From: a virus
Strand: one strand, 5' to 3'
Length of the DNA stretch: 29,683 nt
Virus record (IMG/VR): IMGVR_UViG_3300034102_001289
Span: 1-29,683 of that record
Both the position numbers and the translations under genes were made by a program. The notes under the pieces were generated by a model. It had not been told where the DNA came from. It worked only from the letters and a program-made list of their open reading frames with translations, and searched no databases. Positions 8,258 through 21,488 of the stretch are shown piece by piece. Every line of letters begins with the position of its first letter. Positions within the stretch are counted from its first letter, which is position 1.

Positions 8258-10837
8258 TTAGCCGCGTGGGATGACGCCGTACTGCTTCAGGGTTCGAGTG
8301 ATTTCTTCGAGCGCGGCTTTCGGATCGCCGCCGTTGAGGTTGATGACGACCGACGCGCCGCCGCCCGCCACCGCACCACGGCCAAGTAGGTCGTAGATGC
8401 CGAGGTTGGTCTTCCACATGTCGTCCAATTTGGCCATCAGGTGACCTTCGCGCAGCCATTCATCGGCGCGGAGGTTGGCGAGGTCGTTGGCGGTCTGGAG
8501 CGTGTGCTTTGCGATGATATCGAGCGTTTTATTCATGCCCATCATCTGCAGGTTTCCGATGACGCCGGAGATAGCCGAGATGACCGATCCCACCGCGCCG
8601 ACGACGGCGGTCAAGCTACCGCTGGCGGCAGACGCCGCGCCACCGATGCCACCAGCAGCACCGCCAATTCCGCCCGCCGCAGAACCAGCCGCGCTCGCCA
8701 CGCTCCCGCCTGCGCTTCCGGCCGCTCCACCGGCCCCGCCGAACACCTTGCCCATCAGCCCGCCAACGTCAAATAGCTTATCCGTCAGCTTTTTCAGCGC
8801 GCCTTCAATGAGTAGCCGCGTGATGGACTGCGCGGCCTGCTTTGCCACGTTGGTCAGCATGTCGCCCAGCTTGCCGCCCTTGAAGATGATGTCGGTGATG
8901 CCGCGCGATAGGTCAGTGACGACGGTTGAGACTTGCTGGTAGGCCGCTTTGCCTACCTTGCCCAGCTCCTTCATTTTTTGCTTTTGGGCTTCGAGTTGCT
9001 CCCGCGTCATCATGCCAGTCGGCCCGATATTCGGGAAGGCTTTACCCATGCCGGGGAAATCCGAAGAGCGGCCCACGTTGCCCGGATCGGTTGGAAGGCC
9101 AGGGAACCCAACCGGGCGACCGATGGCCTGCACTGCAGCCGTCGAATTTGCCAGCTTGTCGAGTTCTTGCCGATACAGCATCGTGGCGAGCGCCATTTGC
9201 TCCATCGGGTCTTTGTGAGTCTCTAGCGTCTTCCCGAGCAAGGTGCCCGCGATGGAATACTCATACATCACGTCCTTTGCCTTACTAACAGCGGCCTTGA
9301 CGCGCTCAAGAGACTCGACGTAAACCAGTGAGTTTTTGGACAGTTGCCCGTTTTGGTCGAGCATCACCGTATTGACTTTGATTAGATTCGACGCCGCTTC
9401 CGCTGTCTTCTTGTGGGCATCGGCCACGCCAGCCAACTTTGGAATCAAATCTCCTGCCGCGCCGTTAAAGTTCTTCATGTCGGCGGCCAGCTTGATGTTT
9501 TGCGCGCCCTGCTCTATGGTCCGCTGGTTGAGGTTGGCAATCGCGGAATCCATTTCCTTCGACCGTCCGGTGGCTGCGGCCGTGGCGGTATTGATGGCAT
9601 CCAGCGCCGCCTTAAACAACCCAAAGCCCGGGAGCATGGTCGCGTCAGACAGAACGCGGATGGCGTCGTATGCTCGCTTGATATTGCCAGACAGGTCCGG
9701 GAACTTCCCTGACAGGTCAACAATTACGGCGCGGAAGAACTCCACGTTCTTTTTTGCGTCAGAACACGCCCCGGTCAGCCGTTCAAACTGATAGCCGGTT
9801 TCCTTGAGCTTTTCGTAAATCAGCAGTGTTTCATCTGCCGATTTCAGCCCGAGTGCCAGCGTCCCAAGCGCAGCGCCAAAGGTCGCGCCCGTAATCCCAG
9901 CTTTATTCAAAACGCCAGCAAGAATCGCTGCTTTTTCCGCAAGCGTACCCAGTACAGCCACGACCAGCGGCGCCGCCGTCGCCACGGCGGTAAGCCCGAG
10001 CGCCCAATCCTGCGTAGGCTGCGGCAAATCACGGAACGCCGTAGCCAGCGCCTTCGCCTTCTCGATGCCCGGCGTCAGGAAGTCATCGAGCACACGCTGC
10101 GCGATTGGGAGGAGTGTCTTCCCAAACTCGGCCGCCGCGTCCTTCGCGGCCATCTGAATGTTCTCCCAGGAGTTCTTGTACGTGTTCCCCGCGCGCTCGC
10201 CCTTTGCCAGTTCGTCGGTGATGATCTGGATAAACTTCTGCGACGAAATCCCCATGCGCTCAAACGTCTTTGCCGGATCGCCCAGCGCTTCGGCTCCAAA
10301 CTTTTCCTTGATAATGGCGGCGAGTTGCGGGATGCGCTCGATGATCGGGTCAAGGTTTTCTTTCGTCACCTTGCCGACGGCGCCCAGTTGGGAAAGCTGG
10401 CGGATCACCTCGTTGAAGTCCTCGCGCCCGCCACCGACGACGGCCAGCGCGTTGCCGAGTTCGGCCATGATCCGGCGCGATTGATCGGCGGAATTGCCAA
10501 GGATTTGAAGGCGAACGGTGCCCTTGACAGCTTCCTCCAGCCCGAGGCCCGGCAGCTTCGCCACTTCACGCAGCTTCGCCATTTCGGCCGCCGTGGCTTC
10601 GCTAGTTTTCATCACGGCCTTCAAACCCATGGTGAGCGATTCCATATCGGAACCGGCCTTGATGGCGGCGGCGCCGGCGGCGATCAGCGGCGCGGAAAAG
10701 CCAATGGATAGCGCGGTGCCCGCCGCTGTGACGTCGGACGCAAACCGCTTCACTTTGTTTAGTGAGCGGTCCACCTTCTTGTCGAAATCGTCGGTGCTCG
10801 CGCCAATGCGCACAATGAGATTTGAGAGAATTGGCAT
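8258..10837 (-). CDS. Tape measure protein
   Basis: 859 residues. Tape measure proteins set tail length by spanning the tail tube and later enter the host envelope with the DNA. The N-terminus has the pattern of this family (LSNLIVRIGASTDDFDKKVD, then a long helix), hydrophobic segments near residues 40-60 and 277-310 (VATAAPLVVAVLG), and long helical stretches. Residues about 695-765 are an extreme Gly/Ala/Ser-rich hydrophobic region, often a membrane-insertion segment. The gene lies directly after the frameshifted G/GT chaperone pair, which wraps the tape measure during assembly. The ATG at 10837 is 3 bases after the GT stop. By the usual rule of about 1.5 angstrom per residue the tail would be about 130 nm, which is inference. 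Confidence 0.92.
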   Translation of the reverse strand: MPILSNLIVRIGASTDDFDKKVDRSLNKVKRFASDVTAAGTALSIGFSAPLIAAGAAAIKAGSDMESLTMGLKAVMKTSEATAAEMAKLREVAKLPGLGLEEAVKGTVRLQILGNSADQSRRIMAELGNALAVVGGGREDFNEVIRQLSQLGAVGKVTKENLDPIIERIPQLAAIIKEKFGAEALGDPAKTFERMGISSQKFIQIITDELAKGERAGNTYKNSWENIQMAAKDAAAEFGKTLLPIAQRVLDDFLTPGIEKAKALATAFRDLPQPTQDWALGLTAVATAAPLVVAVLGTLAEKAAILAGVLNKAGITGATFGAALGTLALGLKSADETLLIYEKLKETGYQFERLTGACSDAKKNVEFFRAVIVDLSGKFPDLSGNIKRAYDAIRVLSDATMLPGFGLFKAALDAINTATAAATGRSKEMDSAIANLNQRTIEQGAQNIKLAADMKNFNGAAGDLIPKLAGVADAHKKTAEAASNLIKVNTVMLDQNGQLSKNSLVYVESLERVKAAVSKAKDVMYEYSIAGTLLGKTLETHKDPMEQMALATMLYRQELDKLANSTAAVQAIGRPVGFPGLPTDPGNVGRSSDFPGMGKAFPNIGPTGMMTREQLEAQKQKMKELGKVGKAAYQQVSTVVTDLSRGITDIIFKGGKLGDMLTNVAKQAAQSITRLLIEGALKKLTDKLFDVGGLMGKVFGGAGGAAGSAGGSVASAAGSAAGGIGGAAGGIGGAASAASGSLTAVVGAVGSVISAISGVIGNLQMMGMNKTLDIIAKHTLQTANDLANLRADEWLREGHLMAKLDDMWKTNLGIYDLLGRGAVAGGGASVVINLNGGDPKAALEEITRTLKQYGVIPRG

Positions 10838-10840
10838 GAT

Positions 10841-11358
10841 TTACCGGCGTCGCGTGGGAGTAGAAGGGGTTTGCTGGGACTTCGCGGCCTTGTCCATCTC
10901 CGCGTTTTTGATGCGCAGGTAGGCGGCCCATTCGGTCATCTCAGAGGAGGACATCCGCGTGCTGAGTTCGCACACGGGCATATGGAGGAGTTCGGCGAGC
11001 GCGAAGAGGCTTAGGCGCTCGCCGGTGAGTTTTTTTCAAGCTCTTCGGCGGATTCCTTGAGGATGCCGGAGAGCTTGAGGATCTTTTCGCCGATCAGCTC
11101 GACGGCCGCGGCTGATTTCGTAACGAGCATGTCCACGTGGGCACGCTCGAAGATTGGATTGTCGTTCTCAGGGTCAAGCGTACACGCGATGACCGCGCGC
11201 ACGGTCGCCACGCGGGTCTGCCCTTGGGCATCCTTCACGAAGTCCACGCGTTCGCCCGCGTTGAACTCGCGCACGCGGACCGTCTCGCCCCATTGGGGAA
11301 CGAACAGGTCTTCAGTCTTCAATTTGGCCGCTACTACGCGGTCCAGGATCTTGCTCAT
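10841..11358 (-). CDS. Tail assembly chaperone GT, -1 frameshift fusion
   Basis: This is the extended product of the gene at 11011-11358. Ribosomes slipping back one base on A AAA AAC (11029-11035) leave the zero frame after residue 110 (Asn) and read LTGERLSLFALAELLHMPV and on to the TAA at 10841, giving 172 residues. The new C-terminal part contains SSSEMTEWAAYLRI, the hallmark of the T half of lambda-like GT chaperones and of DUF4035-type proteins, where an E/L-x-x-W-x-A/x-Y motif follows a Met-Ser-Ser segment. In lambda the G to GT ratio is fixed by slippage and is needed for tail assembly. The T part has no usable start of its own before the conserved sequence. Position just before the tape measure gene is exactly as expected. 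Confidence 0.88.
10994..11035 (-). promoter_or_regulatory. Programmed -1 ribosomal frameshift signal
   Basis: The heptamer A AAA AAC at 11029-11035 is in the zero frame as (GA)A AAA AAC. After a 5-base spacer comes a perfect 9-bp stem, GGCGAGCGC (11015-11023) with GCGCTCGCC (10994-11002), and a 12-base loop that contains the zero-frame stop TAA at 11011-11013. Slippery heptamer, spacer and stem-loop follow the standard bacterial -1 arrangement. The -1 frame stays open for 62 codons and encodes a T-like domain. Confidence 0.9.
11011..11358 (-). CDS. Tail assembly chaperone G, unshifted product
   Basis: 115 residues ending EKNSPASA. The N-terminal part (DLFVPQWGETVRVREFNAGE) is the usual opening of G-type tail chaperones and matches a short beta domain followed by helices; residues 83-108 form a charged helix. 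The ATG at 11358 has an excellent ribosome site AAAGGAG. The gene overlaps the 3' end of the 63-residue gene by 47 bases. The unshifted product is normally the major one and acts with the GT form to keep the tape measure soluble until tail tube proteins polymerise around it. Confidence 0.85.
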   Translation of the reverse strand: MSKILDRVVAAKLKTEDLFVPQWGETVRVREFNAGERVDFVKDAQGQTRVATVRAVIACTLDPENDNPIFERAHVDMLVTKSAAAVELIGEKILKLSGILKESAEELEKNSPASA

Positions 11359-11503
11359 TGGGCTCCTTTGCCGTGATCGTGATAGTTCCGGGAAGGTTCA
11401 GCACCCACCCGTTCTTGAAGTCGATTTCCGCGCCGTCGCGCTCAACGCGGTTGATTTCGGACGCGGGCACGACGAGCGCCCGCGCCTGTTTGTCGTAGTG
11501 CAT
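11312..11503 (-). CDS. Hypothetical 63-residue tail-module protein
   Basis: The ATG at 11503 shares one base with the stop of the larger tail tube gene (TAATG), so it is translationally coupled. The product is soluble, with strand-forming segments (ARALVVPASEINRVERDGAE) and a Pro/Gly-rich end (NEQDPGPRSSGQIED). It lies between tail tube and tail chaperone genes, where small accessory tail proteins are common. I do not recognise a family. Confidence 0.65.
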   Translation of the reverse strand: MHYDKQARALVVPASEINRVERDGAEIDFKNGWVLNLPGTITITAKEPNEQDPGPRSSGQIED

Positions 11504-12114
11504 TACGTGGTTGAAAAGTCCACTTCGCCGTGAAGCGCGAAAGAGACGTTTTCCTTGATGAGTTCGTTTTCGCCCGACGTGATTCCAGCGCTCGACATAT
11601 GCCCGGCCGCCATGAAGCGATCATTTCCGGCGAGGTTCGTGTAGAGGTAGAGCACGTAGTAGCTGCCGAGGTTCGTATTGGCGAAGTAGGCGTTATTGTA
11701 GAAGCGCTGGAATGAAATCGTGCCGGATTTCATGACCAACGTGCGCTCTTTCCACGTGTCCCCGAACGTCTGCGACTCCTCGGTGATGACCTCGGAATCA
11801 TAGGACCACTCAAACGCCTGCGCGGCCTGCGCCAGCGTCAGGTATTCGGCGGTGATCGTGATGGTTCCGCCCGCCGTGTACCCGTTCGTGAGCGTGATCT
11901 TCCCCGATGCCCAGCCAATTTGATAGTTGGACTTCGGCACGGTCGAGACGCCATCGAGCACGGTCACGGCCGCGTTGGGATTGATGGCACGCTTCGCCGT
12001 GTCCGTGATCTGGTAGACGCCGCCACCGAGGGAGGTTACTGCCTCCCCCGTCATGGCGGTGCCCGATCCGGTGGCGATGTAGATGTCGGCTGCGTTTCCT
12101 GCGAGTACGGCCAT
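11503..12114 (-). CDS. Tail tube-type protein with an inserted domain (203 aa)
   Basis: It starts MAVLAGNAADIYI and contains FGDTWKERT at residues 117-125, both nearly shared with the smaller neighbour at 12124-12504 (MAVMVGNAAALKI; FGDTWKERT at 38-46). The two are therefore paralogues, and this copy carries about 79 extra residues between the shared blocks, an Ig-like strand-rich stretch with KSNYQIGWASGKITLTNG. Tail tube proteins form the hexameric channel of the tail. One of the two is presumably the main tube subunit and the other a decorated or minor form. The ATG at 12114 has ribosome site AAGGAG. Confidence 0.75.
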   Translation of the reverse strand: MAVLAGNAADIYIATGSGTAMTGEAVTSLGGGVYQITDTAKRAINPNAAVTVLDGVSTVPKSNYQIGWASGKITLTNGYTAGGTITITAEYLTLAQAAQAFEWSYDSEVITEESQTFGDTWKERTLVMKSGTISFQRFYNNAYFANTNLGSYYVLYLYTNLAGNDRFMAAGHMSSAGITSGENELIKENVSFALHGEVDFSTT

Positions 12115-12123
12115 GATGGCTCC

Positions 12124-12504
12124 TTAGGTGTAGGACAGCGCGCCGGTGCCGGTGAAGGTGTAGGAGGCGGTGATGATGCCGTTTTCCGGCGCGGAGAATG
12201 ACGCCTGAACAAAGGCGTTCCCGCTGTAGTAATTCGTGCCGTCCACGTAGAAGCGGATCGCCACGGTGGAACCGGCGAGGAAGGCGGTCTTCAACGCAAC
12301 ATGGCCGTTGGTATCGGCGGTGTCGAGACGGCCGGAACCGCTGCCGCTCCATTCCTTGATGGTCGAGGTGCGTTCCTTCCAGGTGTCGCCGAAGGCTTGC
12401 GTCTCTTCAAGTCCGGTCTGAACGTCGAGAGACCAATTGTCCATCTCGCCAATTGTGTTCGTGCTGATCTTGAGCGCGGCAGCATTGCCTACCATTACAG
12501 CCAT
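12124..12504 (-). CDS. Tail tube protein (126 aa)
   Basis: Compact version of the pair. Order of blocks: MAVMVGNAAALKI, a short helix or loop, FGDTWKERT at residues 38-46, and C-terminal strands ending in ASYTFTGTGALSY. The (A/T)FGDTWKERT block is like the F/GDTWxE motif found in many phage tail tube proteins. A small hairpin and strong AAGGAG ribosome site precede the ATG at 12504, fitting high expression. It lies 10 bases upstream of its larger paralogue. Confidence 0.78.
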   Translation of the reverse strand: MAVMVGNAAALKISTNTIGEMDNWSLDVQTGLEETQAFGDTWKERTSTIKEWSGSGSGRLDTADTNGHVALKTAFLAGSTVAIRFYVDGTNYYSGNAFVQASFSAPENGIITASYTFTGTGALSYT

Positions 12505-21284: not shown

Positions 21285-21488
21285 CTATTTTTTTTTCACA
21301 GTGTCAAGCCTCACGTGTAATATTTTCTTCGCCGTCGCAACCCGTAGCGCTTCCCACAGCGCAGCCATCGTCGCGGATTGGTCCGCTAAGATGCGTTGCA
21401 TCAGGTTGCTGTGTCGTCGTAACTCCTTTATTTCCCTACGCATTGTCGTCAACCGAGCGTACAGCAACTCTTCGTCCTCTTCGCTCAT
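21285..21488 (-). CDS. Coiled-coil 67-residue protein
   Basis: The longer frame from 21698 is unlikely because the ATG at 21488 overlaps the previous stop (ATGA, 21485-21488). The product, MSEEDEELLYARLTTMRREI and onward, is almost entirely a charged amphipathic helix, ending in RLDTVKKK. Such short helices suit a bundle or dimer and often bind DNA or protein partners. No family recognised. Confidence 0.6.
   Translation of the reverse strand: MSEEDEELLYARLTTMRREIKELRRHSNLMQRILADQSATMAALWEALRVATAKKILHVRLDTVKKK
21288..21296 (-). other. A9 homopolymer at the gene junction
   Basis: Nine consecutive A on the minus strand fill codons 65-67 (three Lys) immediately before the TAG of the coiled-coil gene. 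Removing one A shifts the frame so that reading continues through NSVMEISRK into the 115-residue gene at 20933-21280. Polymerase slippage during transcription or a sequencing error could do this. Confidence 0.55.

Follow-up and report, generated by a model that had tools for sequence, protein, structure and literature searches.

A predicted programmed −1 ribosomal frameshift linking the G and T parts of a tail assembly chaperone in an IMG/VR virus record

The window analysed here, an IMG/VR virus record taken in full (29,683 bases), carries on its minus strand a site that is, judged from its sequence and with near certainty, a programmed −1 ribosomal frameshift for a tail assembly chaperone pair of the lambda G/GT type. 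Close to the 3' end of G, frame 0 reads GAA AAA AAC (11037-11029), with seven consecutive A's, and holds the heptamer A_AAA_AAC in the correct frame, as a first-pass annotation of this DNA had described. The zero-frame stop of G was likewise found where that annotation had placed it, inside the loop of a downstream hairpin (whole element, 10993-11035). The −1 frame continues for 62 residues to a TAA at 10843-10841, and the tape measure gene begins with its ATG at 10837, 3 nt further on, in agreement with the earlier claim that a 62-residue T part lies just before that gene. The features of the site and its flanking genes are:

11011 to 11358, minus strand: gene G, tail assembly chaperone, zero-frame product of 115 aa (phrog_344, HK97 TAC fold)
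11029 to 11035, minus strand: slippery heptamer A_AAA_AAC, in frame with G (sequence; near-relative conservation)
11025 to 11028, minus strand: spacer TCAC, 4 nt (sequence)
11015 to 11024, minus strand: 5' arm of the predicted stem, 10 bp, CGGCGAGCGC (folding; near-relative conservation)
11011 to 11013, minus strand: zero-frame stop TAA of G, inside the loop (sequence)
10993 to 11002, minus strand: 3' arm of the predicted stem, GCGCTCGCCG (sequence; folding)
10841 to 11029, minus strand: T part, −1 frame extension of 62 codons plus TAA (phrog_337; third-position variation)
8258 to 10837, minus strand: tape measure protein, directly downstream of T (PF20155 TMP_3, E 1e-18; phrog_1533, E 5e-22)
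12124 to 12504, minus strand: tail tube (major tail) protein, upstream of G (phrog_1407, E 5e-21; PF06199)

Profile searches thus located G and T between the tail tube and tape measure genes, the upstream neighbours of G being a tail tube protein, a tail completion protein and an HK97-gp10-like protein. The existence of a G/GT pair had been proposed earlier from sequence and layout, and the profile matches, the predicted fold, the position between tail tube and tape measure, the conservation of the heptamer and of −1 frame coding, and the joined-gene annotations of relatives all agree with it. In the interval from the tail tube gene to G, a 203-aa ORF (11503-12114, minus strand) gave no convincing family match in the profile searches; the 63-aa ORF that comes next (11312-11503, minus strand), which shares 47 bases with the start of G, likewise gave none.

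In the mechanism that we propose, most ribosomes would read GAA AAA AAC in frame and halt at the TAA, giving G of 115 aa, while in a minority the two tRNAs on A_AAA_AAC would slip back by one base and translation would continue as CTC ACC GGC and onward into T, giving a spliced GT product of 172 aa. A programmed −1 frameshift is described for lambda gpG/gpGT (Levin 1993; Xu 2004; reviewed in PMC5009743), and in lambda-like systems both G and GT are tape-measure binders, tube subunits being brought in by T (PMC5009743). If the present pair behaves as in lambda, its G part would attach to the tape measure protein, its T part would bring in tail tube subunits, and both G and GT would leave before the tail is completed. 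The element had been called strong in the first-pass annotation. In E. coli, which may not be the host, A_AAA_AAC shifts much less readily than A_AAA_AAG and is not among the top heptamers (PMC5009743), and frameshifting measured in two phage chaperone genes amounted to 6-7% (PMC3711429); on these grounds a low to moderate shift rate, rather than a 'strong' one, is the better guess.

The homology of the two parts was apparent at the profile level. Residues 7-112 of GT matched the tail assembly chaperone profile phrog_344 (E 2e-12) and residues 118-150 the tail protein profile phrog_337 (E 4e-5), the latter only in its N-terminal part (positions 7-39 of 118) owing to the shortness of the T part (62 aa). 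Within a small GT alignment, phrog_344 was matched by all seven members and phrog_337 by six of them. The G of the window itself matched no Pfam family at E ≤ 0.01; among 45 aligned G homologues, 11 matched TAC_13 and six TAC_1. Pfam Phage_tail_T reached only E 0.05, short of the cut-off, and for GT NCBIfam returned sub-threshold matches only; a sequence-based profile search of the PDB gave no relevant match and a plasmid search found nothing. Among PDB entries, the AlphaFold model of G (pLDDT 83) was matched best by the HK97 tail assembly chaperone 2OB9 (Foldseek E 1.6e-5, TM 0.64/0.70); its best viral match was the tail assembly chaperone of phage Salgado. The invariant positions of T were common to the T parts of other phages.

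Conservation was examined in 32 near relatives from IMG/VR, 30 of which reach the frameshift site, and in all 30 the T frame is retained together with AAAAAAC. Since the same arrangement is present on 30 separate contigs, we rejected faulty assembly or sequencing as the cause of the frame change. AAG is preferred over AAA (106:46 in five large genes of the phage), so the invariance of the seven A's is not an effect of codon use. Behind the zero-frame stop, 20 of 27 variable sites are third codon positions in the −1 frame (distinct haplotypes, with the divergent locus L031/L055 excluded), and comparison of the window with 12 other haplotypes gave zero amino-acid differences in T codons 8-50 under the same exclusion. 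In the near-relative alignment, no conserved purine-rich element was detected at the usual distance upstream that could act as a Shine-Dalgarno-like stimulator of the kind expected at dnaX-like, hairpin-stimulated sites.

The T part contains an in-frame ATG (10981-10979), from which T could be produced as a separate small protein by internal initiation in the −1 frame. Given that the conserved T homology starts upstream of this ATG and that no Shine-Dalgarno-like sequence precedes it, an independent start of T is extremely unlikely; the G-proximal T residues, moreover, vary almost only synonymously, and the same overlap with a heptamer is present in relatives. Relatives that carry T as an independent gene with a start codon of its own, raised in the first-pass annotation as the contrary case, were looked for and not found. 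T is listed as a separate ORF in some records, for instance that of Gibson, and there it is still in the −1 frame, overlapping G, with the slip heptamer.

Beyond the near relatives, the comparison took in over 100 distant ones, whose G is mostly 25-43% identical. Most have an XXXYYYZ heptamer in the right frame and at the same place, mainly AAAAAAC, GGGAAAC or GGGAAAA, with GGGTTTC and others also represented and AAATTTC among the interrupted heptamers at homologous sites. The family includes cultured phages of Streptomyces, Arthrobacter, Rhodococcus and Thermobifida, and G and T are annotated as a joined CDS in phiSASD1, Dubu and Kovu. Some relatives (L085, L102, L041, L039 and L155; L125, L066, L132, L134 and L150) do not have an XXXYYYZ heptamer: in one group the expected place holds GAG GAT TTC, a G_GAT_TTC-like site, and another group ends in GGG GAA TGA or GGG GAA TAA, near the GGGGGAA 'fivetwo' motif of PRFect.

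These heptamers also bear on whether the frame change could arise in transcription, with RNA polymerase adding an A within the conserved run of seven consecutive A's and the longer mRNA yielding GT with no ribosomal shift. The bacterial cases described concern runs of nine A's or T's (PMC5009743), whereas the run here has seven; many homologous sites are interrupted (GGGAAAC, AAATTTC), which suits tandem tRNA slippage; and the helper hairpin of nascent RNA forms upstream of the slip site, behind the polymerase (PMC5009743), whereas the hairpin here is downstream. Transcriptional slippage is for these reasons very unlikely, and we retain ribosomal frameshifting as the preferred reading. Elsewhere in the window, a run of nine A's at about 21285-21296 (minus strand) ends a 137-aa ORF (GTG AAA AAA AAA TAG), with the next ORF just after; this is possibly a slippage run or merely a lysine-rich end.

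The hairpin behind the heptamer has a perfect 10-bp stem and a loop of 12 nt. The perfect stem reported previously is thus present, although with 10 bp instead of 9 and hence with a spacer of 4 instead of 5 nt; the 5-nt spacer also fits if the stem is counted as 9 bp. Its minimum free energy is −21.3 kcal/mol (z = −4.5), and none of 200 dinucleotide shuffles was as low. On the same strand, the window has two perfect stems of 9 bp or more with a loop of 3-20 nt, versus one to five in Markov sequences. As this count is about what base composition leads one to expect, the improbable part is the placement of the stem right behind an in-frame slip site, for which our own estimate of chance occurrence is roughly 1 in 1000. 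Synonymous resampling of all T codons according to phage codon use produced hairpins as stable in 10% of draws, and resampling of the post-stop codons only in 17%, with a mean of 8.3 of the 10 pairs. The stem is a real feature of the sequence, yet it exceeds only weakly what is expected from the protein sequence, and most of its pairing follows largely from the encoded amino acids.

The hairpin may accordingly be incidental, with its two arms pairing because the codons used for TGER and FALAE are GC-rich and with the heptamer and the T frame nevertheless in use; we give this explanation serious weight, if somewhat less than an even chance. It is favored by the 10-17% of synonymous draws that match or beat the observed stability, and by the pairs that persist when the 5' arm is kept, and it accords with the lack of excess structure in relatives with a distant zero-frame stop. 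Conservation of the stem in related phages had been suggested as a check alongside that of the heptamer, and the stem proved more variable, with 8-10 pairs in near relatives, one-sided changes to G-U, one loss at the end and no double compensatory change. On the other side stand the perfect stem at the classic distance behind the heptamer, the invariance of the 3' arm codons GCG and CTC across 14 haplotypes, and hairpins beyond coding need in relatives with an adjacent stop. Read on the plus strand, the GC-rich stem is followed by five bases and then by TTTTTTT, and might be taken for an intrinsic terminator of plus-strand transcription; the distance from the stem to the T run and the loop of 12 nt are both larger than in the usual pattern, a scan for terminators found none and all genes with profile matches are on the minus strand, leaving this reading a close to negligible probability.

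The position of the zero-frame stop varies among relatives, and stem strength with it. In 23 relatives in which the stop directly follows the heptamer, hairpins were well beyond the synonymous expectation (mean z −2.4), whereas relatives with stops at least 34 bases away had no excess structure on average; the window falls between both classes, its stop coming 16-18 bases after the heptamer and the mean z of its near clade being about −0.8. Stop-adjacent relatives with long hairpins include L067, L112, L136, L137, L145, L156, L157 and L160. The association of stop position with stem strength had a Fisher p of 3e-6 with ancestry ignored and comprised two independent pairs on supported branches; in addition, the resampling null ignores G coding in long overlaps, which biases it against detecting structure there. 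With only two independent pairs, and with G coding constraining the long overlaps, we treat this association as a lead and not as a result. We would tentatively entertain, as a rather unlikely scenario, that the hairpin of this chaperone family is an evolvable stimulator tied to the stop, selected beyond coding where the stop is adjacent but not where it is distant, with the window intermediate.

The analysis corrects an annotation: simple gene calling misses the 62 residues of the T part here and in about 30 related uncultured phage contigs, as the first-pass annotation had anticipated. The site adds a clean and highly conserved AAAAAAC case to a mechanism widely known in long-tailed phages, and leaves the understanding of tail-chaperone frameshifting unchanged. 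Among known systems, lambda gpG/gpGT is similarly located before the tape measure gene, with a zero-frame G, a −1 frame T and a slip site that lies in frame shortly before G ends; the two were compared by layout, and the window differs in its AAAAAAC heptamer, its short T and its predicted hairpin. The Streptomyces phage pairs phiSASD1 gp35/gp35.1 and Dubu gp13/gp14 share homology with the window in both G and the T motif (36-38% identity) and also involve a −1 shift, but differ in having GGGAAAC with a stop immediately after it and a T of about 115-125 aa versus 62 in the window. The predicted fold of G resembles that of the HK97 chaperone 2OB9, with only about 19% of residues identical across the aligned folds. 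The same heptamer, AAAAAAC, is found in the tape-measure chaperone pair gp93/gp94 of the Caulobacter phage phiCbK, compared here through its published description (PMC3556154), and is also used by HCTV-2 (PMC5009743).
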